Shown here piece after piece: positions 39,293 to 61,991 of a stretch of DNA of 64,000 bases; position 1 is the first letter of the stretch; each line of letters starts with the position of its first letter. The notes under the pieces were generated by a model. The model saw only the letters and a list, made by a program, of their open reading frames with translations. It ran no database searches and was not told the DNA's origin. The stretch is from Chitinophaga polysaccharea (lineage in GTDB: Bacteria > Bacteroidota > Bacteroidia > Chitinophagales > Chitinophagaceae), in assembly GCF_007829335.1 (NCBI RefSeq), contig NZ_VIWO01000009.1:62001-126000 (forward strand), read 5' to 3'. Made by a program: the position numbers and the translations under genes.

Positions 39293-41827
39293 ATGTGGAA
39301 ATTTATCCTTTTACTGTCCTTATCTGTTCTTCTTTTTATACCTGCTGATTATGCGCAGTCTTATGGACTTCGCTTTTCCAGCCATGAAGCAGTACAGGAA
39401 AAACGTACCTCGCTGGATCTTACCTCCACCGGTTCACTGTGTATTAAAAAGAATACCTCGCTGTCGTTCGACCTCAATTTTCTCCCTTATAAAGAAACAT
39501 ACTTTGGCTATGTAGTGCGCATCATTACGGATAGTCACCAGAATATAGACCTGGTATACAACCAGAAAGAACGCACTTTTAACTTCCTGATCGGCGAAAA
39601 TTATTCCACCGCTTTCGTGGTGGATTCCGCTGCCCTGTTTGGCCAGTGGACCCGTATCGGGATTGCATTTGATGTGACGGGCCGCCAGGCTGCTGTTTCG
39701 GTCAATGGCCGCACCATTGCCCATGGCCCCGTGAAATTACCCGCGGGTACGTGTATGCACGTGTTTTTTGGCACCAACACCTACGAGGGGTTTCAAACAG
39801 TAGATATTCCGCCAATGAACCTCCGGGATATCCAGGTAAGTGAGGAAGGACAGGTTAAATACAAGTGGCCCCTGTCGGAAAATGATGGGCAGATAGCCGT
39901 GGACGTGATAGCCGGGAAAAAGGCTGCCATCCGGAATGCCGACTGGATTGGGCCTAAACACCGGCAATGGCGCATGCTGCAAAGCTGGGAAATAAACGGT
40001 AACCCCAGTGTGGCTTTCGATCGGGACAACGAAGTACTGTATGTGGTGTCGCGCGACTCCCTGTATGACATCTCGTTTAAGCAGGAGTTGAAACAAGCCC
40101 TGAAATTATCACAGCCACTGGATTCTCTCATGCCAGGCAACCAGTCGGTATTCAATCCTTTTAATCATCGCCTGTATAATTATTATATAGATCATCAGAA
40201 AGCAGGCACCTATGATACGGTAGCCCGCAAATGGGATGTGAGCTATGCGCCAGACCTGCTCACGGTTTTCTGGCAGGCCAATAAGTTCGTATCCCGTACC
40301 GACTCCTCCCTGTATGTATTGCTGGGATACGGACAATTACAATATAAAAACAAAGTACAGCGGTACCGGTTTGCCGATAAACAATGGGATTCCGTTGCTA
40401 CTACCGGCGAGCGGATGACGCCACGTTACCTGGCGGCGGCAGGCGCCACGCCCAATGGCGATACCACCTATGTGCTGGGAGGATATGGCAGTAACAGCGG
40501 TAACCAGGTGGTGAACCCCCGCCATTACTACGACCTGGTGCGGTACGTGGTAAAGGACCGGGCGTTTCATAAAATATACCAGTTGCCCGACCCGCCCACA
40601 CAATTTTGCTTTGCCAACAGCCTGGTACTTGATACCGACCATAAAACCTGGTATGCGCTGATTTTCCCCGACGACAAATTCAATACTACGTTACAGCTGA
40701 TTCGCGGGTCGCTGGAAATACCCGGGTATACACCGCTGGCGGGGACTATTCCCTATTCTTTTCACGACATCAAGTCATTCGCCGATCTCTATTATTGTAA
40801 AGACAGTAAGCAACTGGTGGCGGTAACCCTGTATACGTCGAAAGATAACGTGACTACCGTGAAGGTATATACGCTGGAGTTTCCGCCGGAATTGCTCACA
40901 ACCGATGCGGCTTTGCCAGTATCATCGCCATTCCGTTGGTACTATTTACTGGCGCTGCCGGTCTTGGGACTGCTGGTATGGTGGTGGAAAGCCCGTCGCC
41001 GGCAGCCGGTTACGGTGCAGCCTGTGGTGACAGCACCGGGAGAGAAGGTAGTGATGCCGGAGCCTCTACCGGAGCCGGAAATGGAGTTATTACCCGAACC
41101 TGATAAACGGGGACATATCTTTTTCTTCGGGCCATTTGAAGTACAGGATAAAGAAGGGCAGGACGTTACCAAATTCTTTACGCCGTTGTTGAAGGAATTG
41201 TTCCTCCTGATCAGCATTCATACCCTGCGTACTGGCAAAGGCATTTCATCGGAAAGGCTGTATGCCACCCTTTGGCGCGATAAGTCGAACAAGGAGGCGC
41301 AGAATAACCGTTCGGTGAATATGGTAAAGCTGAAAGCGATCCTGGATAAGTTGGGCGCCTGCGCATTTGTGAAGGAGGCCGACCGCTGGAGCTTACAATA
41401 TGCGCCTTCCGATATCCGGATGGACCTGGCCGATTTCCAGCAGCTGTTGCAGGCGCCGCGCCCATTCAATAAGGACCGGGTACGGGAGCTGCTGGGTATC
41501 CTGCGCCGGGGCGCTTTCCTGCCTGATGCCAATTACACCTGGCTGGAAGATATTCAGTCGGAGATTTCCAACGCTGCGCTGACAATGTTGACCGATGCCG
41601 CGGAGCAGTTCCCCGCCGATGCCGAGTTCCTGATCGAAATAGCTGATAGTATCTTCCTCTTTGACCCGGTAAATGAAGAGGCGTTGCGACTCAAATGCAG
41701 CAGTCTAATTTCCCTCGGTCGTCATTCACTGGCAAAAGCAGCCTTCAATAAATTCACCAAAGAATACCTCCATATGTACGGAGAAGAGTTCCCGCAGGTG
41801 TTCACCGACTTCTCCGGTGATAAATAA
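39293..41827 (+). CDS. Transmembrane one-component regulator: LamG-like and Kelch-like sensor, SARP/BTAD output
   Basis: 844 residues. A signal peptide/first helix (MWKFILLLSLSVLLFIPADY) leads to a concanavalin/LamG-like domain (about 20-190) and then a beta-propeller-like region (about 215-530) with Kelch-type strands such as PNGDTTYVLGGYGSNSGNQV. One membrane helix (about 548-566, FRWYYLLALPVLGLLVWWW) is followed by a Pro/Glu-rich linker and a cytoplasmic winged helix of OmpR/SARP type (about 610-700, with SSERLYATLWRDKSN and NRSVNMVKLKAILDKLGA), then a helical BTAD domain (700-844). So it joins extracytoplasmic carbohydrate-type sensing directly to DNA binding, without kinase or receiver. 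It lies next to a SusC/SusD/GH92 locus, which it probably controls. Confidence 0.75.
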   Translation: MWKFILLLSLSVLLFIPADYAQSYGLRFSSHEAVQEKRTSLDLTSTGSLCIKKNTSLSFDLNFLPYKETYFGYVVRIITDSHQNIDLVYNQKERTFNFLIGENYSTAFVVDSAALFGQWTRIGIAFDVTGRQAAVSVNGRTIAHGPVKLPAGTCMHVFFGTNTYEGFQTVDIPPMNLRDIQVSEEGQVKYKWPLSENDGQIAVDVIAGKKAAIRNADWIGPKHRQWRMLQSWEINGNPSVAFDRDNEVLYVVSRDSLYDISFKQELKQALKLSQPLDSLMPGNQSVFNPFNHRLYNYYIDHQKAGTYDTVARKWDVSYAPDLLTVFWQANKFVSRTDSSLYVLLGYGQLQYKNKVQRYRFADKQWDSVATTGERMTPRYLAAAGATPNGDTTYVLGGYGSNSGNQVVNPRHYYDLVRYVVKDRAFHKIYQLPDPPTQFCFANSLVLDTDHKTWYALIFPDDKFNTTLQLIRGSLEIPGYTPLAGTIPYSFHDIKSFADLYYCKDSKQLVAVTLYTSKDNVTTVKVYTLEFPPELLTTDAALPVSSPFRWYYLLALPVLGLLVWWWKARRRQPVTVQPVVTAPGEKVVMPEPLPEPEMELLPEPDKRGHIFFFGPFEVQDKEGQDVTKFFTPLLKELFLLISIHTLRTGKGISSERLYATLWRDKSNKEAQNNRSVNMVKLKAILDKLGACAFVKEADRWSLQYAPSDIRMDLADFQQLLQAPRPFNKDRVRELLGILRRGAFLPDANYTWLEDIQSEISNAALTMLTDAAEQFPADAEFLIEIADSIFLFDPVNEEALRLKCSSLISLGRHSLAKAAFNKFTKEYLHMYGEEFPQVFTDFSGDK

Positions 41828-41857
41828 AAAATAATTTTCCCGGTTTTAATACCAGCG

Positions 41858-41887
41858 TTAGTGCTTTATTAGTGCCTTCATTAAGGG
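41858..41887 (+). promoter_or_regulatory. Direct-repeat array A: three TTAG-type heptamers at 11-12 bp spacing
   Basis: TTAGTGC (41858), TTAGTGC (41869) and TTAAGGG (41881) start 11 and 12 bp apart, one helical turn. A TTGCAGG box begins 19 bp after the last heptamer start (41900), followed by TAAC. The array is 30 bp downstream of the stop of the SARP-like gene, oriented toward susC. SARP regulators are known to bind heptameric direct repeats with an 11- or 22-bp period near promoters, which fits, but binding here is inferred. Confidence 0.6.
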
Positions 41888-41912
41888 ACGGCTACTAATT
41901 TGCAGGTAACAA

Positions 41913-41948
41913 ATGAATAAGACAAGATTCCACGTCTTGGGCACTTAG
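41913..41948 (+). CDS. 11-codon leader-like ORF
   Basis: Encodes MNKTRFHVLGT, starting 6 bp after the TTGCAGG box of array A and ending 23 bp before the terminator hairpin at 41972. Its first codons include a small hairpin (AAGAC/GTCTT, 41919-41938). It may be a leader peptide, or the region may be the body of a short non-coding RNA; chance is also possible at this length. Confidence 0.25.
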   Translation: MNKTRFHVLGT

Positions 41949-41971
41949 GCCGTTTTTATTACAAATGATAG

Positions 41972-42005
41972 CATGCTGGTGAGGTAGTTCACCGGCATTT
42001 TTTTT
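41972..42005 (+). terminator. Intrinsic terminator between the SARP-like gene and susC
   Basis: TGCTGGTGA and TCACCGGCA form a 9-bp stem with one G-U and a 6-base loop, followed by eight T. It would end transcripts from the regulator gene or from array A, about 390 bp before susC, so susC must use a later promoter or be subject to read-through control. Confidence 0.85.
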
Positions 42006-42397
42006 ACGGGTACCCACCTGAACCCGCCTACGAAAAGAACGAAACCGGAATAGCAGGTCAGTTAAAGTGAAATAAAATAGATATTTTTCAAAATATTGGT
42101 TATTAGCATATTATGAATGTTAGTTGTTAGATAACTTTCACTGTATTTAATATTTTACTTTAAGTGACAGACACCTGCGCCGCGGCCTCCATATATAGGA
42201 ACGCCATCCCGGGCACGCGTCTGCGGGACGATGTTTATGACCAACGAAATAGCCCGCCTTCTTATCTCTCTCCCAAAAAAAAATTAAGAAAATGCCTCCA
42301 TTAATGCTCCTGTTAGTTCCTTATTAGCGCTGCCGTTAGCCCCCTGGAGCTTACTTGCAGGGTATTATTTTTTATCAATCGAAATATCAATCACGTT
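42006..42397 (+). promoter_or_regulatory. susC upstream region with direct-repeat array B
   Basis: The first 290 bp are AT-rich without a gene. At 42301-42342 four heptamers TTAATGC, TTAGTTC, TTAGCGC and TTAGCCC start at 42301, 42313, 42324 and 42336 (12, 11 and 12 bp apart). As in array A, TTGCAGG begins 19 bp after the last heptamer start (42355) and is followed by GTATTA. The susC ATG is 43 bp downstream of that box. This is the probable promoter and activator region of the SusC/SusD/GH92 locus. Confidence 0.65.
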
Positions 42398-45397
42398 ATG
42401 AAAAGAGTGCTATTGCTGATGCTCCTTGCATCAGGTCTGCTACAGACCTATGCTCAAAAGCAGTTGACAAAGGGTAAAGTGCTGGATGAAACCGGCCATC
42501 CGCTACCCGGCGCCACTGTACGGGTAAAAGGGACTACCATCTCCAGCCCCACAAATGCCCAGGGCGAATTCCAGGTTAATACCGGGGAAACATCCAACCC
42601 GGTTTTGATCATCTCCTACATTGGATACATTACCGCGGAAGCGCCGGTTACCGGAAACGGTGCGGTATCGGTGCAGCTGAAAACTGATCCCCGCTCTTTA
42701 AACGACGTGGTAGTAGTAGGTTATGGTACCCAAAAGAAAAGAGATGTTACCGGCGCTACCAGCTCCATCAAGGCAGTAGACATTGCCAAACGCCCGCTGG
42801 TAAGAGTAGAGCAGGCCTTGCAGGGCACTACCTCCGGTGTAACGGTGCAAAGCGGCAGCGGTCAGCCGGGAAAAGGACTGAGTGTACGTATCCGCGGCGC
42901 CAGCTCCGTGAGTGGCGGTAACGACCCGCTCTATGTAATCGACGGTTACATTGGCGGCAATATTGAATCGGTAAGTCCCGCCGACATTGCCTCCGTGGAA
43001 ATCCTGAAAGACGCTTCCGCTACTGCCATCTATGGCTCCAGGGGGTCCAATGGCGTAGTGCTCATTACCACCCAATCGGGCAAAGAAGGGAAGCCCCGGG
43101 TCAACTTCAGCTCCTGGCTCAGCAAAGCCAGCATCCCCAAAAAACTGAGTTTGATGAACGCCTTTCAATTTGCGGAACAGGTAAATAAATATACCCTCGC
43201 AAAAGATAACAGCGCTACGCCTCCCTTCAGCGATGCCGACCTGAAAGGCTTTCAGAACAATCCCGGCACCGATTGGCAGGATGCCATCACGCAGGAACCC
43301 TGGATCCAGAATTACCAGGTAAGCGTTTCCGGCGGATCGGCCAATGTGAAATATTTCTTCTCCTACAATCATCTCGATCAGCCAGGTATCCTCATTAACC
43401 AGTGGTATAAAAGAAATACCCTGAGAGCCAATATGGATGCAAAGCTCAACGACCGGATGAACCTGAAGGTCAACATCACCGCCGTATTGCCTCAGACACA
43501 CAATACGGACTACTCCGGCGATATCACCGATCCATTTGCGCAAGCGTATCAATACGATCCCACCGTGCCGGTAAAAGATGCCAGCGGGAACTATACCCCT
43601 GGTTCTCCCCGGGCTTCCAACCAGTATAACCCGGTAGCCAACGCTATGAACCGGTCGGTAGATGTAAACACCACCAACGTTACGGCTACTGGCATATTCA
43701 CTTATCGCATCCTGGATCACCTCACCTTTACGTCCAACAACAGCTACGAGCTGCAGTCGCAATTGAGCCAGTCGGTGTTCCCCCTGGCAACCAATGAAGG
43801 CAACGTGAAAAATGACTATGCACAGGCTGAAACCAATCGTTACCGCAGCTGGCAAAACAGTAACTTCCTCACTTATACCAACCGGTTTGGCGATCATGCG
43901 CTCACGGTAACTGCCCTGTTTGAGCAGGCCTCCAAAACTAACACCAACGTAAAGGCACAGGCGAAGAATTTGTCGAGTTACAATAACGGCTATTATAACC
44001 TGGGTCTGGGTGGTACACAGCTTACCACCAGCGGATACTGGGCAGATGCGCTCATCTCTTATATGGGCAGGGTGAACTATGCCTATAAGGATAAATACCT
44101 GTTGACCGCCGCGGTTCGTACCGATGGCTCGTCTCACCTCACGCAGAAATATTCCACGTTCCCCTCCGTGGCCTTGGGTTGGGTGATCAATAAGGAGCGC
44201 TTCATGGAGCAGTCGCGCGTGGTGACGGGCTTGAAGCTACGGGCCAGCTACGGACAAACCGGTAACCAGGCCGTTCCAGCCTATGCTACCATTGCGCAGA
44301 TCAACAGTGGTGGTCCCGCTTATTATTTCGACGGCTCCACGCCTTCTGTATCTACGCCGCTGGGAACACCGGTATCACAAAGCCTGCAATGGGAAAAGAA
44401 TACCACCTATGATGTAGGGATCGATGCGGAGTTGTTCCGCGGCCGCCTCACCTTCACCGCCGATGCCTATAACCGCCAGATCACCGACCTGCTGTACAAC
44501 GTTCCCAATGCCAGTTATTATGGTGGCGGCAACTACCAGAAGAACCTCGGCAGCCTGGAAAATAAGGGATTAGAGTTCAGTATCGGGGGCATGCCGGTAG
44601 CTGGTAATAAATTCAAATGGACCAGTAACTTCAATATTTCCTTCAATCGCAATAAGGTATTGAACCTGGGCGGTATCGATAATGTGATCGTCAATAATAT
44701 AGGCTCCGCACAAAATGGCGCCGCCATTCTGAAAGTGGGGCAGCCGCTGGGTTCTTTCTTCGGATATAAATTCCTGGGCACCTGGAAAACAGCGCAGGCC
44801 GCGGAAGCCGCCTTGTATAATGCCAAACCTGGTGATGCCCGGTACGAAGACCTGGATAACAGCCACTCCTATACGTCGGCCGACTTGCAGGTAGTAGGTA
44901 ATGGTACCCCGAAGTTTGGTTTCGGGTTTATCAATGATTTCAGCTACGGCAACTGGAGCATGAATGTAATGTTCCAGGGCACCCACGGCAACCAGATCTA
45001 TTCTTTCACTACGCCGTATACCCTCGGCGGGCTGGGAGATGCCCGTCATGCAACGTCTACGGAGGTGCTGCATATGTGGACGCCGGAAAATCAAACTAAC
45101 GTGCCTACCTATACCAGCAACAGCTTCCTGACCAGCAGCCGTTGGGTATATGATGCCAGCTATATTAAGCTGAAAAACATATCGCTTACCTATACTTTCC
45201 CGGAGAGGATCCTCAGCAGGATCCATGTCAACAGCCTGGATATTTACGTGAGCGCGCAGAACATCTGGACTGTCACCAACTACCCCGGGTACGATCCGGA
45301 AGTAACCAATGCCACCAACGCCATTACACAAGGGTTGGAAACGGGCACTATTCCTAACCCCAAAACATATACGGTGGGATTGAGACTAGGCTTATAA
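42398..45397 (+). CDS. susC: SusC/RagA-family TonB-dependent transporter
   Basis: 999 residues with a signal peptide (LLMLLASGLLQTYAQ). The order is a CarboxypepD_reg-like sandwich (about 25-105, KGKVLDETGHPLPGATVRVK), the plug with VVVGYGTQKKRDVTGATSSI, LYVIDG and VEILKDASATAIYGSRGSNG, then the 22-strand barrel ending TYTVGLRLGL. There is no STN domain, so signalling through an anti-sigma factor is not expected; the SARP-like regulator upstream is the likely control. It forms the import channel whose lid is the SusD protein from the next gene, 47 bp on, and imports large mannan-derived oligosaccharides if the GH92 gene reflects the substrate. Confidence 0.93.
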   Translation: MKRVLLLMLLASGLLQTYAQKQLTKGKVLDETGHPLPGATVRVKGTTISSPTNAQGEFQVNTGETSNPVLIISYIGYITAEAPVTGNGAVSVQLKTDPRSLNDVVVVGYGTQKKRDVTGATSSIKAVDIAKRPLVRVEQALQGTTSGVTVQSGSGQPGKGLSVRIRGASSVSGGNDPLYVIDGYIGGNIESVSPADIASVEILKDASATAIYGSRGSNGVVLITTQSGKEGKPRVNFSSWLSKASIPKKLSLMNAFQFAEQVNKYTLAKDNSATPPFSDADLKGFQNNPGTDWQDAITQEPWIQNYQVSVSGGSANVKYFFSYNHLDQPGILINQWYKRNTLRANMDAKLNDRMNLKVNITAVLPQTHNTDYSGDITDPFAQAYQYDPTVPVKDASGNYTPGSPRASNQYNPVANAMNRSVDVNTTNVTATGIFTYRILDHLTFTSNNSYELQSQLSQSVFPLATNEGNVKNDYAQAETNRYRSWQNSNFLTYTNRFGDHALTVTALFEQASKTNTNVKAQAKNLSSYNNGYYNLGLGGTQLTTSGYWADALISYMGRVNYAYKDKYLLTAAVRTDGSSHLTQKYSTFPSVALGWVINKERFMEQSRVVTGLKLRASYGQTGNQAVPAYATIAQINSGGPAYYFDGSTPSVSTPLGTPVSQSLQWEKNTTYDVGIDAELFRGRLTFTADAYNRQITDLLYNVPNASYYGGGNYQKNLGSLENKGLEFSIGGMPVAGNKFKWTSNFNISFNRNKVLNLGGIDNVIVNNIGSAQNGAAILKVGQPLGSFFGYKFLGTWKTAQAAEAALYNAKPGDARYEDLDNSHSYTSADLQVVGNGTPKFGFGFINDFSYGNWSMNVMFQGTHGNQIYSFTTPYTLGGLGDARHATSTEVLHMWTPENQTNVPTYTSNSFLTSSRWVYDASYIKLKNISLTYTFPERILSRIHVNSLDIYVSAQNIWTVTNYPGYDPEVTNATNAITQGLETGTIPNPKTYTVGLRLGL

Positions 45398-45444: not shown

Positions 45445-47004
45445 ATGAACTTGAGATATTTAATGCCCCTGGCGGCAGCGGTGGTAATGGGAACGGCCTC
45501 CTGTGTGAAGCTGACAGAGGACCCGAAAGGAAATTTAACTACTACCAATTATTTCGCTACCCAAAAAGACCTGGACGCCGCGGTGAGCGCTATTTACCAG
45601 CGGCTGAGTGTAGACGGCGCCTGGGCCTTTACCAATAAAAGCACGTCTTATTTTGGAGCAGATGACCTCACTACCGATAAGGGCCTGAACAAGCAGGACT
45701 TCCGCGAGTTCGACAAGCTGGAAGGTACCAGCACCAATGAAAGCCTGAAGGCGCAGTGGAATGGCCCATGGAGCGCCATTTACCAGGCCAACAACGTATT
45801 GCTCAATTACCAAAAGGTACCTACCACCGATGCCAACAGTGTGGATGCCCGCAACCACTCGGCGGGGCAGGCCTATTTCCTGCGGGGCCTCTGTTATTTT
45901 ATGCTGGTAAGGACTTTCGGCGCCGTGCCTATTGTAGACAAGCAGGCAGAAATATCTGTGGTACCGCCAAGAGCAGACGTAGCGCATATTTATGAATTTA
46001 TTGTGAACGACCTGAAACAGGCCACTACATTGTTGCCGGCCAAATGGTCGTCTGGCACCGATGTGGGAAAGGCTACCAGCCTGGCAGCAAGGGCATTGCT
46101 GGCTAACGTATACCTGACCATGGCAGGTTGGCCCCTCCATCAAACGGCCAACTATGCGCTGGCGGCTACCGAAGCAGATGCGGTGATCCAGGCCAGGCAA
46201 TACACACTGATGGATGACTACCTCCAGGTGTTCAGAACCAACAATAATGCGGAAAGCATTTTCGGGATACAGTTTAATGTAGGCGGTAATGCGCCTAACC
46301 GCTCTTTTGGGTCTACCAGTGTACCATTGGAAGAAACTGCACTGGATGGTTCCGGCGGCTGGGACGATTTTTACCCCGAGGTCAATTTTTACCTGAATGC
46401 GCCCAAATGTAAACGTACCGACGAAACGTTTTATACCACTATTAAGCTCCGTAATGCCGATAATAAAACGTACACGCTGGTGAATTGGGATAATTCACTG
46501 ACCAATGCCCGGCATCCTTATTATAAGAAGTTCCGTTATGGCGTAGGGGATGGGGTACAGGAAACAGACAACACCATTATACAAATTAAGCCCAGCACCA
46601 ATAAAACCACAGACGTGATCCGTTATGCCGAAACGCTACTCACTTATGCAGAAGCGGCCGCTATGTCGGAGGGAAATCCTTCTGCCAAAGCCTATAGTGC
46701 GGTAAATGAAGTGAGGCAGCGTGCCGGGTTACCGCCTTTAACACAAGGCTTGCCGGCAGCAGCTTTCCGCGATTCGGTAGTATATGAAAGAGCCTACGAG
46801 TTTGCCGGCGAATTTGGTCAACGCTGGTTTGATATTGTGCGGTTGCAGCTGTTGCCCAAAGTGTTGGCAGCCCGCAGCACTACCGCAGAACAAAATAAGA
46901 TCAACAGCAATTCGCTCACCAACCCGGGGCCCCGGTACCTGGCCCCGATACCGTTTGGTGATCTGAGTCTCAGCCCCGGCTGGACTCAGAATCCGGGTTA
47001 CTGA
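45445..47004 (+). CDS. susD: SusD/RagB-family glycan-binding lipoprotein
   Basis: 519 residues with an SPII signal (VVMGTASCVKLTEDP, Cys20). The SusD TPR scaffold is evident (DLDAAVSAIYQRLSVDGAWA, AQWNGPWSAIYQANNVLLNY, GQAYFLRGLCYFMLVRTFGA, then RYAETLLTYAEAAAMSEGNP and the C-terminal YERAYEFAGEFGQRWFDIVR). It is anchored at the cell surface and caps the SusC barrel to capture oligosaccharides. It follows susC by 47 bp and ends before a 16-bp perfect hairpin at 47024. Confidence 0.93.
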   Translation: MNLRYLMPLAAAVVMGTASCVKLTEDPKGNLTTTNYFATQKDLDAAVSAIYQRLSVDGAWAFTNKSTSYFGADDLTTDKGLNKQDFREFDKLEGTSTNESLKAQWNGPWSAIYQANNVLLNYQKVPTTDANSVDARNHSAGQAYFLRGLCYFMLVRTFGAVPIVDKQAEISVVPPRADVAHIYEFIVNDLKQATTLLPAKWSSGTDVGKATSLAARALLANVYLTMAGWPLHQTANYALAATEADAVIQARQYTLMDDYLQVFRTNNNAESIFGIQFNVGGNAPNRSFGSTSVPLEETALDGSGGWDDFYPEVNFYLNAPKCKRTDETFYTTIKLRNADNKTYTLVNWDNSLTNARHPYYKKFRYGVGDGVQETDNTIIQIKPSTNKTTDVIRYAETLLTYAEAAAMSEGNPSAKAYSAVNEVRQRAGLPPLTQGLPAAAFRDSVVYERAYEFAGEFGQRWFDIVRLQLLPKVLAARSTTAEQNKINSNSLTNPGPRYLAPIPFGDLSLSPGWTQNPGY

Positions 47005-47116: not shown

Positions 47117-49375
47117 ATGAATAAAGTAACGTGGAAGCTGTGCAGCCTTTTACTGCTCACACCTTTTGTATCCTTGCCGGACTATGCCGCCACTGCGGCC
47201 TGCCGCGATTCTGTTCCCGGACCTAAGCAAAGTATCGACCTGGTAGATCCTACCATTGGCAACGTAGGACAACTGCTGGAACCTACCCGGCCCACCGTGC
47301 AGCTGCCTAACCAGCTGATACGGTTTACACCACAGCGGAAAGATTTTATGGACGACCAGATCGATAACTTCCCTTTAACCATTGTATCGCACCGCTTAGG
47401 ACAGGTGTTTGCACTCAAGCCCACCTTACAAACGCCTTCAAAGCAAGCCTGGCAAGCCAGGATGGCGTATGACCATAACCTGGAAGTAAACAAGCCATGG
47501 TATTATTCTACCTGGCTGCTCGACGACGAGATCAACGTGGAGTTTACTGCCGGCAGGAAAACAGGGTATTACCGCTTTCGTTTCCCGCAAAACAAAAGCA
47601 AGTCGCTTTTGCTCGATGTATATAATGAGGGGGCATCGGCCTTTCAATTTTTACCCGGGAACGTGCTTACCGGCATGGAAACCTATAACGGTGACATCAA
47701 GATATACCTGTTTGGCGTATTCAGTGAAGCCGGCACGCCAGGTGTAGTAGAACAGGACCAGTTAACGAACCATACCAGCGTTAGCGGCAAAGGCAGCAAA
47801 GCCTGGATTACTTTCCCGGCCACCACCAGGGAAGTGACTTTTAAGTATGGTATCAGCTACATCAGCGCAGAACAGGCAAAAAAGAACTATGAAACAGAGA
47901 TCAGCAAAAAAGAATTTGATGCCGTAGCTGCCAATGGCAAAAAGGCCTGGTCAGAGGTCCTGTCGCAGGTACAGGTGAAAGGAGGTACACTGGCGCAGCA
48001 GCGGTCTTTTTATACCGCCTTATACCGTTGTTATGAAAGGGCGGTGGATATTACGGAAGATGGACAATACTACAGCGGTTTCGATAAACAGGTGCACCGC
48101 GACAGCCGTCCGTTTTACGTAGATGACTGGTCCTGGGATACCTACCTGGCCTTGCACCCGTTGCGAATGATCCTCAACCCGGCCAGGGAGGAAGACATGT
48201 TGGAATCATATGTACATATGTACGAGCAAAGCGGCTGGATGCCTACTTTCCCGGTGTTGTTTGGCGACCATGCCTGTATGAATGGGTTCCATTCTTCCGT
48301 GGTAATGCTGGATGCCTGGCGGAAAGGGCTGAAGCGATTCAATATTGAGAAGGCCTATGAAGGCATGCGCAAAAATGCTACCGAGGCCACCATGTTGCCC
48401 TGGCGCAATGGCCCCAAAACAGTGCTCGACGATATATACAGGGAGAAGGGATATTTTCCCGCCCTGCATAAAGGAGAAAAAGAAACCGTACCTGAAGTAC
48501 ATGACTTTGAAAAACGACAGGCCGTAGCAGTGACGCTGGGCGGCGCCTACGATGACTGGGCGGTAGCTGAACTGGCGGGCGACCTGCACAAGACCGATGA
48601 TCAGCGCCTGTTTGCACCCAGGGCTAAAAATTATAAAAACCTGTGGAATGCCGACAAAGGATTTTTTCTTCCGAAAGACGACAAAGGCGAGTGGATCGAC
48701 ATCAACGTAAAGTATGATGGTGGCCTGGGTGGCCGCGATTATTATGATGAAAATAATGGGTGGACTTACCTGTGGCAGGTGCAACAAGACATTCCGGGGT
48801 TGATTGGTTTAATGGGAGGGAAGCAGGCCTTCGTTAACCGGCTGGATCAACTGTTCCGCGAACCGCTGGACATGTCGCGGTATACTTTCTGGAATAAGTT
48901 TCCCGATGCCACCGGCCTGGTAGGGCAGTACTCTATGGGAAATGAGCCCAGCTTCCATATTCCTTACCTGTATAACTATGCAGGCGCCCCCTGGAAAACG
49001 CAGCTGCGCATCCGGTTTTTACTCGATGCCTGGTTTAAAGACAATATCTTCGGTATTCCCGGCGATGAAGATGGCGGCGGTATGTCGGCCTTTGTCGTAT
49101 TTTCTTCCATGGGATTTTACCCGGTAACACCTGGCATCCCGGAATATACCATCGGCAGCCCCGTATTTGAAAAGGTAAGTATTGCTTTGCCCAACCAAAA
49201 GCACTTTACTGTAGTGGCGCATAACAGCTCTGTTGTGAATAAATATATCCAGCAGGCAAAGTTCAATGGGCAACCTTTGAATAAGCCCACGTTTACCCAC
49301 CAGCAGCTGGTGGATGGTGGCACACTGGAGCTGTTTATGGGCCCCAGGCCCAATAAGAGCTGGGGCGTGCAGTAA
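47117..49375 (+). CDS. GH92 alpha-mannosidase
   Basis: 752 residues with a signal peptide (VTWKLCSLLLLTPFVSLPDY, then AATAACR). The N-terminal beta-sandwich starts VDPTIGNVGQLLEP, and the (alpha/alpha)6 domain contains DDWSWDTYLALHPL, EPSFHIPYLYNYAGA (Glu610 as probable general acid) and PGDEDGGGMSAFVVFSSMGF (Asp650/Asp652, base, calcium-dependent). GH92 enzymes are exo-alpha-mannosidases, mostly alpha-1,2 but also 1,3, 1,4 and 1,6. The linkage cannot be read here. With the GH76 gene 14 kb on, the likely target is alpha-mannan. It closes the first mannan locus. Confidence 0.92.
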   Translation: MNKVTWKLCSLLLLTPFVSLPDYAATAACRDSVPGPKQSIDLVDPTIGNVGQLLEPTRPTVQLPNQLIRFTPQRKDFMDDQIDNFPLTIVSHRLGQVFALKPTLQTPSKQAWQARMAYDHNLEVNKPWYYSTWLLDDEINVEFTAGRKTGYYRFRFPQNKSKSLLLDVYNEGASAFQFLPGNVLTGMETYNGDIKIYLFGVFSEAGTPGVVEQDQLTNHTSVSGKGSKAWITFPATTREVTFKYGISYISAEQAKKNYETEISKKEFDAVAANGKKAWSEVLSQVQVKGGTLAQQRSFYTALYRCYERAVDITEDGQYYSGFDKQVHRDSRPFYVDDWSWDTYLALHPLRMILNPAREEDMLESYVHMYEQSGWMPTFPVLFGDHACMNGFHSSVVMLDAWRKGLKRFNIEKAYEGMRKNATEATMLPWRNGPKTVLDDIYREKGYFPALHKGEKETVPEVHDFEKRQAVAVTLGGAYDDWAVAELAGDLHKTDDQRLFAPRAKNYKNLWNADKGFFLPKDDKGEWIDINVKYDGGLGGRDYYDENNGWTYLWQVQQDIPGLIGLMGGKQAFVNRLDQLFREPLDMSRYTFWNKFPDATGLVGQYSMGNEPSFHIPYLYNYAGAPWKTQLRIRFLLDAWFKDNIFGIPGDEDGGGMSAFVVFSSMGFYPVTPGIPEYTIGSPVFEKVSIALPNQKHFTVVAHNSSVVNKYIQQAKFNGQPLNKPTFTHQQLVDGGTLELFMGPRPNKSWGVQ

Positions 49376-51687: not shown

Positions 51688-52440
51688 TCAGACAGCCTTT
51701 GCCTCGGGCAGTTGTTTACTGATATATCCTATGAACGTCCATATTTCCAGGATTTCGTCGATATGCACAGTAGTAGTATCGTAGGCACTGTTGAGCGAAT
51801 GAAGCGACAGCGTCCTGTTTTGCTTAATGTGGTTACCCACTACTTTGAACACTATTTCTTCCTCTCCGCCTTTCAATATCAGTACACAGGCGGTATTGTT
51901 TTTCAGGTGTGACCAGTCTTCCAGGTATTGGGCAATGATATGACTGCCATCGGGAATGGGCTCCATAGAGTCGCCGCTGATGGGAAACATGCGGATGGTT
52001 TTGCCCCTGGGTAATTCCGGTAGCGTGAATTTAGGCAGTGCCGCGATAAATGCCGGGTCGCTAAAGCCGCTGCGGTAGCCTGCTCTGGCTTTGGCTGGCA
52101 CGTATTCCATATTTTCTTCGTTATGTTCATCCACGGTTATGGGCAAAATGCGTATATGCCTGCCCGTGAGGTCTATCTTTTTGCCAGTTTCCAGTTCTTC
52201 CAGCTGGGCCTCCGGGAGCAGCGACAAATCCGTTTTTATGAGCAGGTCCATGTCTACCTGGAAGAATCCGGCAATCAGTACCAGGTCTTCCATCCGTGGA
52301 TTGCGTGTTTTACCGCTTTCCTGTGCGGTGATTTTATTCCTGTTGAGTCCCAGTAAATCGGAGAGGTGTTGTTGTGAGAGTTTCTTTCGTGTCCGTAATA
52401 GTTTTAGATTAGCGGCCCAGAAAAGGGGCTGTTTGTCCAT
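51688..52440 (-). CDS. XRE-family regulator with S24/LexA-like C-terminal peptidase domain
   Basis: 250 residues. Residues 8-65 form an XRE helix-turn-helix (LKLLRTRKKLSQQHLSDLLG, then LNRNKITAQESGKTRNPRME), and residues about 125-235 an S24 autopeptidase-like domain with the Ser in PISGDSMEPIPDG and the Lys region in EIVFKVVGNHI. The layout is that of C1/HdiR-type repressors that inactivate themselves under stress, although many chromosomal Bacteroidota members do not cleave. Upstream are two 10-bp direct repeats at 52449 that may be its operator. Neighbouring genes are not phage-like. Confidence 0.8.
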   Translation of the reverse strand: MDKQPLFWAANLKLLRTRKKLSQQHLSDLLGLNRNKITAQESGKTRNPRMEDLVLIAGFFQVDMDLLIKTDLSLLPEAQLEELETGKKIDLTGRHIRILPITVDEHNEENMEYVPAKARAGYRSGFSDPAFIAALPKFTLPELPRGKTIRMFPISGDSMEPIPDGSHIIAQYLEDWSHLKNNTACVLILKGGEEEIVFKVVGNHIKQNRTLSLHSLNSAYDTTTVHIDEILEIWTFIGYISKQLPEAKAV

Positions 52441-54027: not shown

Positions 54028-54094
54028 AAAAGCTGGCTATTTGTTGTACCCGTTCACAACGATAGGTAACGGTTTTCCTGTTTGTAAATTTGAA

Positions 54095-54853
54095 ATGCCT
54101 ATGTATGAAGCAGCCAGAAAAATATGGAAGGTAGTCGCGGAAAACGTGGCGCCGCCGCTGTCGATACCCGAATTGGATATACAAAAAAAGATACTTCCCT
54201 TTTTCCAGGTAGGTGATTGTTATTACTTTATTTTTAATGCCACCAGGGGAGAGTTTGATTATGTACATCCAGGTATTGCGGACATATTGGGCTATAGGGC
54301 AGAGGAATGTACCGTGGCCAAAATAATGAGTTATATACATCCCGAAGACATTGGCTGGTTCCTGGATTTTGAACAGCAGGCAGTAGCTTTTTTCGAATGG
54401 CTGCCTATCGATAAAATACTGAAATATAAAGTGCGCTACGATCTGCGCGTGCGCAAAGCCGATGGGCAGTACCTGCGGATGCTGCACCAAACCACGCCGC
54501 TGCAGCATGGCGAAGATGGCGCCATATTACGTACTTTCGGGGTACATATCGATATTACCCACCTGAAATCATCCGGGCCGCCGGTATTATCCTTTGTGGG
54601 ATTGGATGGAGAGCCGTCTTATTTAAATATAGATATTAAGAAAGGGTTTAGCCCCTCTCATGAAGTGCTGACCCGGCGGGAAAAGCAAGTGCTGGAGCTG
54701 TTGCTGCTGGGCATGTCGAGCCGGAAAATTGCCGATGAGTTAAATATCAGCCGTCAAACGGTAGACAAACACCGCAAGAACATGCTGCAAAAAACAGGTG
54801 TCCATTCTTCCGCCGAAATGGTAGTAAAGGCCCTGAAGGAAGGTTGGGTATAA
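54095..54853 (+). CDS. PAS domain-LuxR-type helix-turn-helix regulator
   Basis: 252 residues if the ATG at 54095 is used. A perfect TAAATTTG -7-like box ends 2 bp before that ATG, which would favour the ATG at 54101. A PAS fold (YYFIFNATRGEFDYVHPGIA, then DILGYRAEECT and IHPEDIGWF) is followed by a LuxR helix-turn-helix (LTRREKQVLELLLLGMSSRK, then IADELNISRQTVDKHRKNML). It has no receiver domain and is a paralogue of the protein from 32554. The PAS domain probably binds a ligand; targets are unknown, although the ECF sigma gene follows at 190 bp. Confidence 0.85.
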   Translation: MPMYEAARKIWKVVAENVAPPLSIPELDIQKKILPFFQVGDCYYFIFNATRGEFDYVHPGIADILGYRAEECTVAKIMSYIHPEDIGWFLDFEQQAVAFFEWLPIDKILKYKVRYDLRVRKADGQYLRMLHQTTPLQHGEDGAILRTFGVHIDITHLKSSGPPVLSFVGLDGEPSYLNIDIKKGFSPSHEVLTRREKQVLELLLLGMSSRKIADELNISRQTVDKHRKNMLQKTGVHSSAEMVVKALKEGWV

Positions 54854-56881: not shown

Positions 56882-59800
56882 ATGAGAAAGGAACTATACA
56901 AGCCTTCTTTTCGCCAGCCTTTCCTATCACTGATTGTTTGTTTATCGTTGCTGAGCGTGCTGGACCTGCGTGCACAGGTGGCCTATGCGGCAGGCCTGCG
57001 GCGGCAGGTACAGCACCAGCCGGCAAAGGAGCGGGAAAGACCGCCAGCGCTCAACTACCTCGTTAGCCTGCAGGTAGAAAATGCCACGCTGGCACAAGTA
57101 CTGGAAAAAATAGAAGCACAAACCTCCCTGGTATTTGTCTATGCCAACGATGATATCAAAGCAGCACAAAAAATATCCCTTACTGTAAAGGATAATAAGC
57201 TGGATGATGTGTTGCAGATGATCCTGCCACCGTTGGAAATCCATTATGAATATATCGCCAATAAAATTATCCTCAAAAAAGGAGATGCCAGCACTATCGG
57301 TGCCCAACAGCAGGAACTGATCATCACGGGCCGCATAGTGGATAGCAAGGGACAAGCCATTCCCGGTGTCAATATCCGTCTGAAAGGGCAGAGCATTGGC
57401 ACCGTTACCAATGCAGAAGGCAACTATACGCTGAAAGTGCCGGCAGTAGCGGCAAACGGGGTACTGATATTTTCTTCTGTCGGGTATACGGCCACTGAAA
57501 TCGCCATCGACGGAAGAACCAGTATCATGGTAACCCTCAGCGCCGACCCAAAAGACCTGGGAGAAGTAGTGGTTACGGCTTATGGACAACAGCAGAAAAA
57601 GCAGGTGACGGCGGCCATCAGCACCGTATCTTCCAAAGACATTACCAGCAGGCCATCGGTAAATATGTTCCAGGCTTTACAGGGACAGGCGCCCAACCTG
57701 ATCATGCAGCAGAATACCGCTGAACCGGGAGCCGCCATGACCATGAACATCCGTGGGGTGGGTAGCTTAACCGGCAACGCACCGCTGGTAATCATTGATG
57801 GTATACAAGCCGGCAACAGCGGCTTGCAGAACCTGAACCCTTATGATGTAGAAACCATCTCTGTATTAAAAGATGCAGCATCGGCCGCTATTTACGGTTC
57901 ACAGGCAGCTAACGGTGTTGTATATATTACCACCAAAAAAGGTAAGAAAGATGAGCGCCCTTCTGTACAATATAATGGCATGTACGGCTGGCAAACGCCT
58001 ACTACACTACCCCGTCAGGTAGAAGCCTGGCAGTACATGACCCTGAAAAATGAAGCGCTGGTGAACTCCGGTAAAACACCACAGTTTTCACCTTCCGATA
58101 TCAAGTACTGGCACGACCGCGGTTCCGAACCTGGTATGCTTTCGGAAATGATCCGGAAATATACGCCGCAGCAAAATCATAATGTCAGCCTGACCGGCGG
58201 TGGTAAAACCAGCAGCTACCTGCTTTCCCTGGGATACCTGGATCAGGGCAACATGCTACAGAATAAATATGTGCCACAGGACTTCTTTTATAAAAGATAC
58301 AATGCCCGCTTAAACGTATCCGTCGACGTGAGTAAATACGTGAAAGTGAGTGGTAATGCAGCTTATACCCGTTCCAATTTCCGTACACAGGTAGCCGACA
58401 TCGGCATGCTGATCCGCGATGCGATGCGCGTACCGCGTATTTACCCGGTAAAAGATACCCTGGGCAACTGGGTAGTGCCGGCCCTCACCAGCAACAGCGT
58501 ATTTGCACAGCTGGCCGATATGGGATATAACCTGAAATCGGTTGATAACCTGATGGGGGGGCTCGATGTGGTGATCACACCCGTGAATCATTTCAGGATT
58601 AATCTGAATGCCTCCGGTAATTATAACATTGAGAATAATACCAGCCGCACCAACAAATTTACCTACGCACCTTATTATACCACGGCTACACCGCCCATGT
58701 ATAACGAGTTGCATCAGAATGAATACAAAGATCTGACCACCAACATCTATGCTACAGCGGAGTATGAAAATACGTTTGGCAAGCACTATGTGAAAGGCCA
58801 GGTGGGCGCGCGTAGCGATGCTATCAATGAAAGCTATGGCCTGAGAGCAGACCGGTTTGGTACCACCAATCTCGATAACGACTGGTCTATCGGCGGTGGT
58901 TATATTCCTAAGCCAGATGGCACTTACGATTACCGGGATATAGGCACGTACAATGATATACGTAATCCGAATTTATATGCGTTGAACTCCTTGTTTGGCC
59001 GTTTGAACTACGCTTACAACGACAAATACCTGGCAGAGTTTACCTGGCGGTATGACGGTTCTTCCAAGCTGGCGCCGGGCCATCGCTGGCAGTTCTTCCC
59101 TGCGTTTTCACTGGGATGGAGACTGACCGATGAAGCTTTTATGGAAGAAGTGAAGAACCGTATCGGTAACTTTAAACTGCGCTATTCCTGGGGACAGGTG
59201 GGTAACTCTAATATTGGTGGTTTCAACTATTTGTCGCGTGTAAGTATCAACAACGCCAACTATTCCTTTAATAACTCTATTGCCCCTGGTAATACCTTTT
59301 CTACTTACAACGACCTGTTGAAGTGGGAAATTTCCACCATGAGCAACTATGGTGTGGACGCCGATTTCTTCAATGGCCGGTTAACTGCTTCCTTCGATTA
59401 TTTTGATAAAATGACCACGGGTATTTACCTGTTCCAGACCGTACCGGGTACTGCGGGTACATCTGCGCCACTGGAAAACGTAGGAAAGGTAGATAACAAG
59501 GGCTGGGAGTTTACCGTGAACTATCGCGCCACTACCGGGGCTTTTCATCACAACTTCGGATTTAACCTGGCCGATAACCTCAACAAGGTAATTAAGTTTG
59601 GACAGGAGTCGGTGCGTGGTTCGGATGTAACCTTTATCATCAAGGAAGGCTACCCGATTGCATCTTATTATGGTTATAAGTCCAACGGTTTATACCAGAA
59701 CCTCGACGATCTGAAGAATGCGCCTAAAGTACCGTTTGCCTATAACCAGCAGGTGATGCCGGGAGATATCAAATACATAGACCGTAACAAGGATGGCGTG

Positions 59801-60364
59801 ATTGATGAAAACGACCGCTATATTTTCGGTAACCCGTTTCCCCGCTACACTTTTGGCTTTACCTACAATGTGAGCTGGAAGAACTTCGACTTTACCATGT
59901 TCTGGCAGGGAGTGGGCAAGCGTTCGCAGTTCCTGCGCGGCGATATTGTAGAGGCCTTCCACAATAATGAAGACCATGCCATGGTACAGCACCTGGATCG
60001 CTGGACGCCCACTAACCCGGATGCGAGCTATCCCCGTTTAACCATTGGATCGGCAGATGCCAACAACTTTGCCTATTCCGACTACTGGCTATTTGACACC
60101 AAATACCTACGCCTGAAGAACCTGCAGATCGGCTATAGCCTGCCGGCGTCGCTGATGAGACGGGCTGGTATGCAGGGCGTGCGGGTATATTTCACCAGTC
60201 AGAACCTGATAACGATTACGCCTAAACGTTTCCGCCAGCTGGGAGTGGATCCTGAGTTTTCCCAATTCGATGATAAGTTGAGCATGTCTAATTACAATCC
60301 TATTGCGGGGCGTAATTACCCGAATGCGGCCACGTTTTCTTTTGGTGTAGATGTAAAGTTTTGA
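56882..60364 (+). CDS. SusC-family TonB-dependent transporter with STN signalling domain
   Basis: 1160 residues. After the signal region comes an STN domain (about 58-118, VENATLAQVLEKIEAQTSLV), then the CarboxypepD_reg-like sandwich (about 140-215), the plug (VVVTAYGQQQKKQVTAAIST, APLVIIDG, ISVLKDAASAAIYGSQAANG) and a barrel ending ATFSFGVDVKF. The STN domain is the docking site for FecR and makes this transporter a ligand sensor as well as an importer. It leads the susC-susD-susE-GH76 operon, with 19 bp to susD. The 999-residue SusC at 42398 lacks this domain, so the two loci use different control systems. Confidence 0.93.
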   Translation: MRKELYKPSFRQPFLSLIVCLSLLSVLDLRAQVAYAAGLRRQVQHQPAKERERPPALNYLVSLQVENATLAQVLEKIEAQTSLVFVYANDDIKAAQKISLTVKDNKLDDVLQMILPPLEIHYEYIANKIILKKGDASTIGAQQQELIITGRIVDSKGQAIPGVNIRLKGQSIGTVTNAEGNYTLKVPAVAANGVLIFSSVGYTATEIAIDGRTSIMVTLSADPKDLGEVVVTAYGQQQKKQVTAAISTVSSKDITSRPSVNMFQALQGQAPNLIMQQNTAEPGAAMTMNIRGVGSLTGNAPLVIIDGIQAGNSGLQNLNPYDVETISVLKDAASAAIYGSQAANGVVYITTKKGKKDERPSVQYNGMYGWQTPTTLPRQVEAWQYMTLKNEALVNSGKTPQFSPSDIKYWHDRGSEPGMLSEMIRKYTPQQNHNVSLTGGGKTSSYLLSLGYLDQGNMLQNKYVPQDFFYKRYNARLNVSVDVSKYVKVSGNAAYTRSNFRTQVADIGMLIRDAMRVPRIYPVKDTLGNWVVPALTSNSVFAQLADMGYNLKSVDNLMGGLDVVITPVNHFRINLNASGNYNIENNTSRTNKFTYAPYYTTATPPMYNELHQNEYKDLTTNIYATAEYENTFGKHYVKGQVGARSDAINESYGLRADRFGTTNLDNDWSIGGGYIPKPDGTYDYRDIGTYNDIRNPNLYALNSLFGRLNYAYNDKYLAEFTWRYDGSSKLAPGHRWQFFPAFSLGWRLTDEAFMEEVKNRIGNFKLRYSWGQVGNSNIGGFNYLSRVSINNANYSFNNSIAPGNTFSTYNDLLKWEISTMSNYGVDADFFNGRLTASFDYFDKMTTGIYLFQTVPGTAGTSAPLENVGKVDNKGWEFTVNYRATTGAFHHNFGFNLADNLNKVIKFGQESVRGSDVTFIIKEGYPIASYYGYKSNGLYQNLDDLKNAPKVPFAYNQQVMPGDIKYIDRNKDGVIDENDRYIFGNPFPRYTFGFTYNVSWKNFDFTMFWQGVGKRSQFLRGDIVEAFHNNEDHAMVQHLDRWTPTNPDASYPRLTIGSADANNFAYSDYWLFDTKYLRLKNLQIGYSLPASLMRRAGMQGVRVYFTSQNLITITPKRFRQLGVDPEFSQFDDKLSMSNYNPIAGRNYPNAATFSFGVDVKF

Positions 60365-60383
60365 TGCCTAAACAATCACATGT

Positions 60384-61991
60384 ATGAAGAAGTTAATTTT
60401 ATCGATACTAGTTGCCGCGGGTTTGTTTGGCTGTCGTAAGCTGGATCAGCCGATTACGCGGGAGTTTACCGAAACCTCCTACTGGCGCAATTCGCAGGAT
60501 GCGTTAGATGCCCTGGCTGCCTGTTATGAGCATTTATCCAAGGATGATTATTTCTTTGGAGACGAAGCGCTGAGCGACAACGCTTATAACAATGGGGGAG
60601 GGCTGCTGAATGTAAATGCCATTGCCAACGGCGGTTATGATGGCGCCAATGGCCGCGTAGCAGATACCTGGTCTTATTACTATACCACTATTCGCCGGTG
60701 CAATACCGTTACCACCAATATAGACCGGGTGCCGGCGATGGACGCCATGCTGAAGCGCCGTATTGTAGCCGAGGCCCGCTTTATCCGCGCCTATGCCTAC
60801 TTCCAGCTGACCGTATCTTTCGGGGATGTACCTTTTTATACGGATCTGATTACGATTGATCAGTCGCGTGTGATTGCCCGTACCGACAAAAACACCGTAC
60901 AGCAGTTTGTATTATCTGAGTTGGCCGATATCCAGAAAGACTTGCCCACCAACACCGACCAGGCGCAGGGCGACCGTGGCCGGGTGACCCGTGGCGCCGC
61001 CATTGCCATGAGTGCCCGTGTACACCTGTTTCGCGGCGAGTGGCAGGGAATAGTGAATGATTGCGAGCAGCTGATCGGTAAGACCAGCAACGGTACTTAC
61101 TCCTTGTTTTCCGGCTATAGCAACCTGTTTACCGTAGCAAATGAATACAACCCTGAAGTGATCCTGGACCTGGAGTATGGTGGTGGCCGCACATACGATA
61201 AGCAACGCCAGTTTTTGCCACAAACCATTGCCGCGTTGAGAAGTGTGCTGGTGCCTACGCAGGACCTGGTGAATGATTATATCATGACCAATGGTAAAGC
61301 CATTACCGAGGCAGGTTCAGGCTATGATGAAAACAACCCGTATGCAAACAGGGACCCGCGTTTTGATGCAACCATCCTGCATCACGGTTCCAGGGTAACT
61401 GACTTCAACGGGGTGCAACAAACCATTTTGACGCAACCGGGATCCGTACCGGCTACCAACACGGTAGATGACCAGGGAGCTTCTCCCACCGGTTATTATT
61501 TCTATAAGTATTACGACCGGTCGGCCACCAATTATTCGTCGGGCTTAAACCTGATCCTGGTTCGCTATGCTGATGTGTTGCTGATGTATGCCGAAGCAAA
61601 GAATGAGTTAGGGCAGATGAATGCCACCATCTGGAACCAAACTATTCAGCCGCTGAGAGTGCGGGCGGGCTTCGCAGATGCCGGCGCTACGCAATTTAAC
61701 GCGGCCCTGAACCAGGACCAGCAACGCGCCGTAATTCGCCGGGAAAGAAGAGCAGAGCTGACGTTTGAGGGATTGAGGATACTGGATATACGTCGCTGGA
61801 AAACTGCCGATGTAGTGATGAATAAGCCGGTGAGAGGGATTAAAGTAAGTTCCGGGGCTTTCAATAAAGATCCCAATGGATATATTATTGTAGAAAACAG
61901 GTTGTTCACCAACCCTAAACACTACCTGTGGCCGGTGCCCACAGTAGAACGCGATCAGAATAAAAATCTTTCACAAAACCAAGACTGGTAA
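60384..61991 (+). CDS. SusD/RagB-family lipoprotein
   Basis: 535 residues with SPII signal (LVAAGLFGCRKLDQP, Cys17). The family opening FTETSYWRNSQDALDALAAC, the TPR scaffold (RRIVAEARFIRAYAYFQLTV), and the C-terminal RRERRAELTFEGLRILDIRR and PKHYLWPVP motifs are typical. It should bind oligosaccharide on the cell surface and cap the STN-SusC barrel. It is tightly spaced within the operon (19 bp upstream, 25 bp downstream). Confidence 0.93.
   Translation: MKKLILSILVAAGLFGCRKLDQPITREFTETSYWRNSQDALDALAACYEHLSKDDYFFGDEALSDNAYNNGGGLLNVNAIANGGYDGANGRVADTWSYYYTTIRRCNTVTTNIDRVPAMDAMLKRRIVAEARFIRAYAYFQLTVSFGDVPFYTDLITIDQSRVIARTDKNTVQQFVLSELADIQKDLPTNTDQAQGDRGRVTRGAAIAMSARVHLFRGEWQGIVNDCEQLIGKTSNGTYSLFSGYSNLFTVANEYNPEVILDLEYGGGRTYDKQRQFLPQTIAALRSVLVPTQDLVNDYIMTNGKAITEAGSGYDENNPYANRDPRFDATILHHGSRVTDFNGVQQTILTQPGSVPATNTVDDQGASPTGYYFYKYYDRSATNYSSGLNLILVRYADVLLMYAEAKNELGQMNATIWNQTIQPLRVRAGFADAGATQFNAALNQDQQRAVIRRERRAELTFEGLRILDIRRWKTADVVMNKPVRGIKVSSGAFNKDPNGYIIVENRLFTNPKHYLWPVPTVERDQNKNLSQNQDW

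Follow-up and report, generated by a model that had tools for sequence, protein, structure and literature searches.

Which protein reads the two arrays of short direct repeats that lie between a regulator gene and a susC gene in this Chitinophaga DNA? An earlier note on the window (the whole stretch of 64,000 nucleotides that was analysed) had proposed that they form an operator of the kind bound by SARPs. We think that the arrays are probably the operators of the adjoining one-component regulator, a reading to which we give a probability of about 0.84 from sequence comparisons. It is supported by the recurrence of the arrays beside orthologues of the regulator, by distant glycosidase targets, by a structural model that resembles AfsR and EmbR, and by an 8-bp gap between array and promoter element.

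The arrays have the same layout. The spacer between the regulator gene (39293-41827) and susC (start at 42398) is 570 bp long and holds both of them. Putative operator array A (41846-41887, plus strand) has four TTA[AG] units, at 41846, 41858, 41869 and 41881, and putative operator array B (42301-42342, plus strand) has four at 42301, 42313, 42324 and 42336, each with a spacing of 12-11-12. A -7-like promoter element lies 8 bp past the last unit, TAATTTGCA at 41896-41904 for array A and TTACTTGCA at 42351-42359 for array B (both on the plus strand), and TTGCA begins 19 bp from the start of the last unit in both. All seven unit positions and both boxes described earlier are present in the sequence; the fourth unit of array A, at 41846 (TTAATAC), had been overlooked. 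The proposed TTGCAGG box holds for TTGCA, which is conserved, and not for the trailing GG, which relatives do not keep. Similarly, the proposed TTAGNNC heptamer reduces to a TTA[AG] core with a mere tendency to C at the seventh base (22 of 42 arrays at the last unit).

Arrays A and B are the sole chains of at least three TTA[AG] units at 11/12 bp in the 64-kb window on either strand. Among 20,000 first-order Markov simulations of the 570-bp spacer, 378 contained a chain of at least three units and 1 contained such a chain with TTGCA at +19; none had two of the latter. An automated direct-repeat search of the window reported no direct repeats, because the units have just four bases in common.

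Array B stands before genes for a SusC-type TonB-dependent transporter (42398-45397), a SusD-type protein (45445-47004) and a GH92 enzyme (47117-49375), all found by gene scan on the plus strand. A second SusC/SusD pair in the window (56882-61991) has no array of this type, and the arrays are therefore no general trait of susC promoters here. Array A does not sit at the susC promoter; it heads a separate unit whose genes have been lost here.

The C-terminus of the regulator is predicted to have the SARP fold, that is, an OmpR-type winged helix followed by an all-helical BTAD. From the sequence and AlphaFold2 models, the regulator (844 aa, plus strand) has in order a signal-peptide-like N-terminal helix, a beta-rich domain (26-214), a kelch-type propeller (227-529), a hydrophobic helix (547-568) that we take as a membrane span, a linker, and the SARP domain (607-841). 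The full-length model had a pLDDT of 84.2 and a pTM of 0.58, with a propeller resembling kelch domains and low confidence in the linker before the SARP domain. The model of the C-terminal 242 residues, made from 47 sequences, had a pLDDT of 94.2 and contained strands, three helices, a wing and a helical repeat domain. Foldseek against the PDB returned six chains at E<=1e-3 for this model, all of them AfsR or EmbR (E 3e-7 to 1e-4). VIA-align gave Z scores of 15.7 and 15.2 (rmsd 5.4 and 5.5 over 230 and 232 residues), with AfsR and EmbR spanning 14.6-15.7 and the next entry at 8.2. The domain has 22 invariant residues, and seven of these (A67, N69, N70, V73, N74, K77 and L78) sit in the third helix, the recognition helix of the winged-helix fold.

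Attempts to recognize the SARP domain from sequence alone were unsuccessful, and structure was required. The C-terminus of the window regulator had no match in Pfam, to Trans_reg_C and BTAD or any other family, even at E<=10, and none in NCBIfam; the sole PDB matches by phmmer and hmmsearch were to a zinc-finger protein (E 0.12) and to a regulator of the PhoB type (E 0.82). Among the 47 family members, six matched BTAD and six Trans_reg_C at E<=1, with sub-threshold best values of 0.02 and 0.025. The winged helix and BTAD that the earlier note had assigned to this gene were thus sub-threshold by sequence and upheld by the AlphaFold2 model, which matched AfsR and EmbR far above the rest. The closest named homologue of the regulator, from C. 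eiseniae, was 94% identical.

The arrays recurred beside homologous regulators within the genus. We used 79 genomes, 58 of which have a regulator homologue, and 92 oriented loci (L031-L122, with L001-L030 not counted). A strict pattern of three units at 11/12 bp, with T[TA]NNTT starting 8 bp past the last 7-mer, was present in 56 of the 92 loci (68 matches; 1 for the reversed pattern). By best BLASTP-segment identity to the window regulator, an array was found in 11/11 loci at 60% or more, 3/3 at 50-60%, 13/13 at 45-50%, 18/22 at 40-45%, and 11/43 below 40%. This amounts to 27 of 27 loci at 45% identity or more and 29 of 65 below, and it bears out the expectation that the arrays would be conserved next to orthologous regulators. 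The strict pattern was absent from 36 of the 92 loci, 32 of them below 40% identity; among the matches listed, some of these misses had variant arrays, such as the TTTTTTAATC type ending in TTACA, and loci such as L096-L099 had no array. The arrays mostly faced the operon adjoining the regulator, whether downstream or divergent. Common ancestry would by itself account for part of the joint conservation of a regulator and a nearby site.

Conservation extended beyond the genus. Of 293 loci, 80 named ones were kept and the 53 not labelled Chitinophaga were used; 36 of these 53 had an array, with 55 matches against 0 for the reversed pattern. The next gene was gh92 for 13 of the 55 arrays, gh71_99 for 11, susC for 8 and gdsl for 1 (33 of 55 together); 18 others preceded unclassified ORFs, and 4 had no ORF of at least 120 aa within 450 bp. 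Only one of the 55 lay within an ORF of more than 200 aa. Hosts included Mucilaginibacter, in which the element ends in TTTGC, and Niastella, in which it ends in TTGC; a looser scan added Larkinella and one of two Spirosoma loci (TTCGC or TTCGT). Six Pedobacter loci (L172-174, L178, L179 and L187) had no array with an element. Two of the 53 loci, labelled improbably as Beijerinckiaceae (L133) and Williamsia (L154), probably come from metagenome bins with wrong assignments.

The spacing of units and element was narrowly defined. Across the set, arrays had 3-5 direct units with a TTA core, 11-12 bp apart. The likeness to the 11-bp period of SARP sites that had been drawn earlier stands as repeats about one helical turn apart, with a mixed 11/12 period in place of a strict 11; an 11-11 period occurred in 32 of 55 matches outside Chitinophaga-labelled loci and in 2 of 68 genus matches. 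Periods from 9 to 23 bp other than 11/12 gave 0-3 matches, against 68 and 55. With TTGC required, the gap from the last 7-mer to the element peaked at 8 bp (54 matches in the genus, 20 elsewhere), with a few gaps of 9 bp (4 and 6). A further peak, at 19-20 bp (35 and 10 matches), is consistent with longer arrays read one unit early. The GC content of the 8-bp gap was 66%.

The full element is approximately TTA[C/A]TTGCA, starting 8 bp past the last 7-mer, with T-[T/A]-A before TTGCA. We profiled 42 non-redundant arrays that had been picked without requiring the box, a set that includes a few chance chains and in which the scan itself imposes the TTA cores. At positions +15 to +22 from the last unit, the counts were T 32/42, T 28, A 21, A or C 16 each, T 37, T 35, G 25 and C 24. 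The excerpt available from PMC7366714 places TAnnTTTG at -7 and TTTG near -33 in promoters of Bacteroidota. By eye, there was no TTTG upstream of the element at array A or array B, which fits dependence on an activator.

Array A heads a small unit of its own. It is followed by a conserved 68-nt leader (41905-41972, plus strand), which contains MNKTRFHVLGT (41913-41948), an 11-codon stub left from the beginning of a gene that relatives have, and the unit is closed by a terminator-like hairpin with a T run (41973-42005, plus strand). In seven relatives (L034-L039 and L050), array A lies directly before an open frame starting MNKTRFHDYGT or similar. The order in L034 is a GDSL/SGNH-TPR gene, an SxtJ-like gene, a carbamoyltransferase gene, array B and susC (L034:4863-9336). 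The SGNH/TPR and carbamoyltransferase genes had no match in the window's genome, its two nearest relatives, or G065 (the set G000, G014, G058 and G065). We rejected the ATG after array A as the start of a real gene in the window: the frame ends after 11 codons in three species, and it is the leader and hairpin that are conserved. The SGNH-TPR, SxtJ-like and carbamoyltransferase genes are an unusual combination for a glycan-uptake locus; gdsl- and carbamoyltransferase-like genes also occur close to the regulator in other genera.

The hairpin is supported by covariation. In 11 sequences, the hairpin was 97.7% paired and 5 of 12 pairs had changed on both sides; sliding the partner lowered pairing to 26-64%. 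None of 500 shuffles reached the covariation score, and 34 of 500 reached the number of further pair types. The leader and hairpin region had no Rfam family at gathering score. The array-A unit was found in 11 genomes, always beside the regulator, and a 22-bp match to it in G063 was taken as chance. In relatives (L034-L040 and L050), a short MALRPFYYEKKECW-like frame, read by eye, overlaps the covarying hairpin. It could be the leader peptide of an attenuator, and it is possible that the hairpin acts as an attenuator there.

The array, leader and covarying hairpin have been conserved despite the loss of the operon, and array A may therefore drive a small RNA. We favour array A as the promoter of a candidate small RNA under SARP control. 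That array A is instead a dead promoter, left without a function once its operon was lost, is the alternative that survives best, and the missing SGNH/TPR and carbamoyltransferase genes and the 11-codon stub are what such a remnant would leave. We nevertheless regard it as doubtful, because in three operon-less species 86.7% of array A columns and 88.5% of leader and hairpin columns were invariant, close to the 90.0% of array B; the spacer behind, at 64.3%, and the fourfold sites of the regulator gene, at 64.7%, were far less conserved.

Matches elsewhere in the genomes were concentrated near the regulator. Two blind pattern searches of the 79 genomes gave 45 and 32 matches (77 in all), and the reversed patterns gave 0 and 0. 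The stretches within 7 kb of a regulator make up about 0.26% of the sequence and contained 51 of the 77. A match occurred in 44 of 58 genomes having the regulator and in 1 of 21 without it (Fisher p 8.5e-9), an association owed in part to linkage. The 26 distant matches are a more independent test than those beside the regulator. Fifteen of them lay within about 320 bp before a GH71/99-like gene, and two (G043:C17 and G061:C222) lay 30 bp before a GH92 gene, 66 and 69% identical to that of the window. An evident glycan target was missing at 9 of the 26; several of these (in G015, G021, G032 and G066) look like chance. The window's own genome has a third array, on a contig different from that of the regulator (G000:C3:106031-106077), before a gene for a 421-aa GH71/99-like protein (L250:183-1445, minus strand).

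Most close GH71/99-like orthologues away from the regulator had an array. We call the distant targets GH71/99-like partly on a sub-threshold match to PF16317 (20.3 bits against a cut-off of 33); the protein had no match in the PDB or NCBIfam. Thirty of the GH71/99-like places listed were examined for arrays within 400 bp. Among close orthologues (at least 70% identity; within L263-L284) away from the regulator, 10 of 11 had an array of their own, and the eleventh, L272 in G029, a genome in which no regulator was detected, had a four-unit array with one unit reading TTAC, possibly decay after loss of the regulator. Another eleven close orthologues, 7-11 kb from the regulator (L273-L282 and L284), had no array within 400 bp and were taken to sit inside the operon behind the regulator-side array. 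Eight remoter homologues (L285-L292, 42-46% identity) also had no array within 400 bp; seven are within about 9 kb of the regulator, and L288 is in a genome without it (G010).

The arrays could be sites of another DNA-binding protein of the neighbourhood, with the membrane SARP acting elsewhere. Site and regulator are linked, so their co-occurrence by itself is no proof; G029 retains its near-intact array before the GH71/99-like gene with no regulator detected, and genes for an HTH/S24-peptidase protein (51688-52440) and a PAS-LuxR protein (54041-54853) lie about 10-12 kb downstream. We consider this improbable, however: matches were nearly restricted to regulator-bearing genomes (44 of 58 against 1 of 21), the fold predicted in the regulator as a rule goes with direct repeats about one turn apart and an 8-bp gap, and the genes scanned beside the arrays, which were some of the ORFs, included no further regulator. 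That the arrays are an AT-rich promoter context with no specific protein reader is hardly credible: the units have only TTA[AG] in common and those of the TTAA type can be read on the opposite strand too, but reversed patterns gave 0, 1 and 0 matches (79 genomes, 92 loci and 53 loci) against 77, 68 and 55, other periods gave next to none, and the 8-bp gap is GC-rich.

We compared the predicted operator code with that of known SARPs. In actinobacteria such as Streptomyces, SARPs are known as switches of antibiotic clusters. They bind repeats and activate transcription through region 4 of sigma, and their classical sites have a strict 11-bp (or 22-bp) period. The window regulator and its arrays have in common with AfsR, PimR and EmbR an OmpR-type winged helix plus BTAD (here predicted), direct repeats about one helical turn apart, and 8 bp from the 3' repeat to a -10-class element (here TTA[C/A]TTGCA). 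The excerpts available give the 3' repeat as 8 bp from the promoter element (PMC10936776) and the PimR operator as three heptamers with 4-bp spacers, with a second PimR operator that deviates in having 10-bp units (PMC5930380). Unlike the actinobacterial proteins, the regulator belongs to Bacteroidota and is a membrane protein in which a periplasmic part is joined to a C-terminal SARP domain; the sites differ in the TTA[AG] core, the mixed 11/12 period (12-11-12 in the window), the 3-5 units, the glycan-operon targets and the Bacteroidota-type -7 element.

Other membrane regulators share some of these properties. One-component regulators of the CadC/ToxR type are likewise single membrane proteins with an OmpR-type winged helix (the CadC domain had a Z of 7.0); their domain order is opposite to that of the window regulator, and they lack BTAD. 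The HTCS of Bacteroides carry kinase and receiver domains, and the window regulator had no AraC-type, kinase or receiver match in Pfam, its C-terminus modelling as a SARP fold. As described in the portion of PMC3878776 available, the HTCS have an AraC-type DNA-binding domain and share with the present system control of susCD loci and direct repeats, which average 21 bp apart. According to the same portion (PMC3878776), the SusR-like regulators of Bacteroides share with it a membrane anchor, periplasmic sensing, a susCD neighbourhood and direct-repeat sites; SusR has a pair of motifs separated by 67 or 77 bp, and no significant similarity of the SusR DNA-binding domain to other known factors is reported. 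The present arrays, with 3-5 units at 11-12 bp, do not have that arrangement, and the predicted SARP fold is a further difference from the published description of SusR. SusR-like regulators could be distant relatives of the membrane SARP.

The SARP fold and operator ruler are already known from actinobacteria, as are membrane regulators of PULs with direct repeats (SusR-like regulators and HTCS; PMC3878776, in the portion available). What appears new is their combination, which was absent among the matches listed from the open-licence literature, as seen in excerpts; these likewise contained no description of a Bacteroidota SARP operator, and one of them, PMC10100984, mentions SARP and Bacteroidota in a text that treats Streptomyces SARPs.

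Based on these comparisons, we propose that the periplasmic part of the regulator would sense a glycan fragment, probably from alpha-mannan, because the targets include GH92 and GH71/99-like genes. The signal would pass across the membrane, and the cytoplasmic SARP domains would then bind cooperatively, aligning side by side on the DNA with one per unit. The protomer nearest the -7 element, 8 bp away from it, would recruit sigma and RNA polymerase to a promoter with no recognizable -33 TTTG. By analogy, a sigma contact like that of AfsR in Streptomyces is somewhat likely for the predicted SARP domain. Array B would drive susC-susD-GH92, and array A a short RNA that ends at a terminator. In relatives, array A stands before the SGNH/TPR gene, behind which come the SxtJ-like and carbamoyltransferase genes. 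More tentatively, and at slightly less than even odds, transmembrane SARPs may form a further class of PUL regulators across Bacteroidota orders, in which a membrane-held row of 3-5 protomers forms on DNA next to the membrane and adapts the primary sigma of Bacteroidota to promoters lacking a -33 element and from which, here, one array has been kept after operon loss for a glycan-induced small RNA of about 80-100 nt.

If the same fold and operator ruler do serve glycan regulators in another phylum, this activation geometry would be older and more widespread than thought. An operator code legible from sequence would make regulons predictable for this group of PUL regulators, the promoter-regulator pair would be on offer for Bacteroidota genetics, and the orphan array A would yield a candidate small RNA under SARP control.

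Some copies of the regulator gene are broken or truncated (L038, with one internal TAG, and L119, L120, L121 and L122), and arrays remain beside L038, L120 and L122. TTCCAC(G) recurs in 5' leaders of the genus (L043, L057, L208, L246 and the window at 41928-41934), often just before the start codon, and may be a translation-initiation or leader element.
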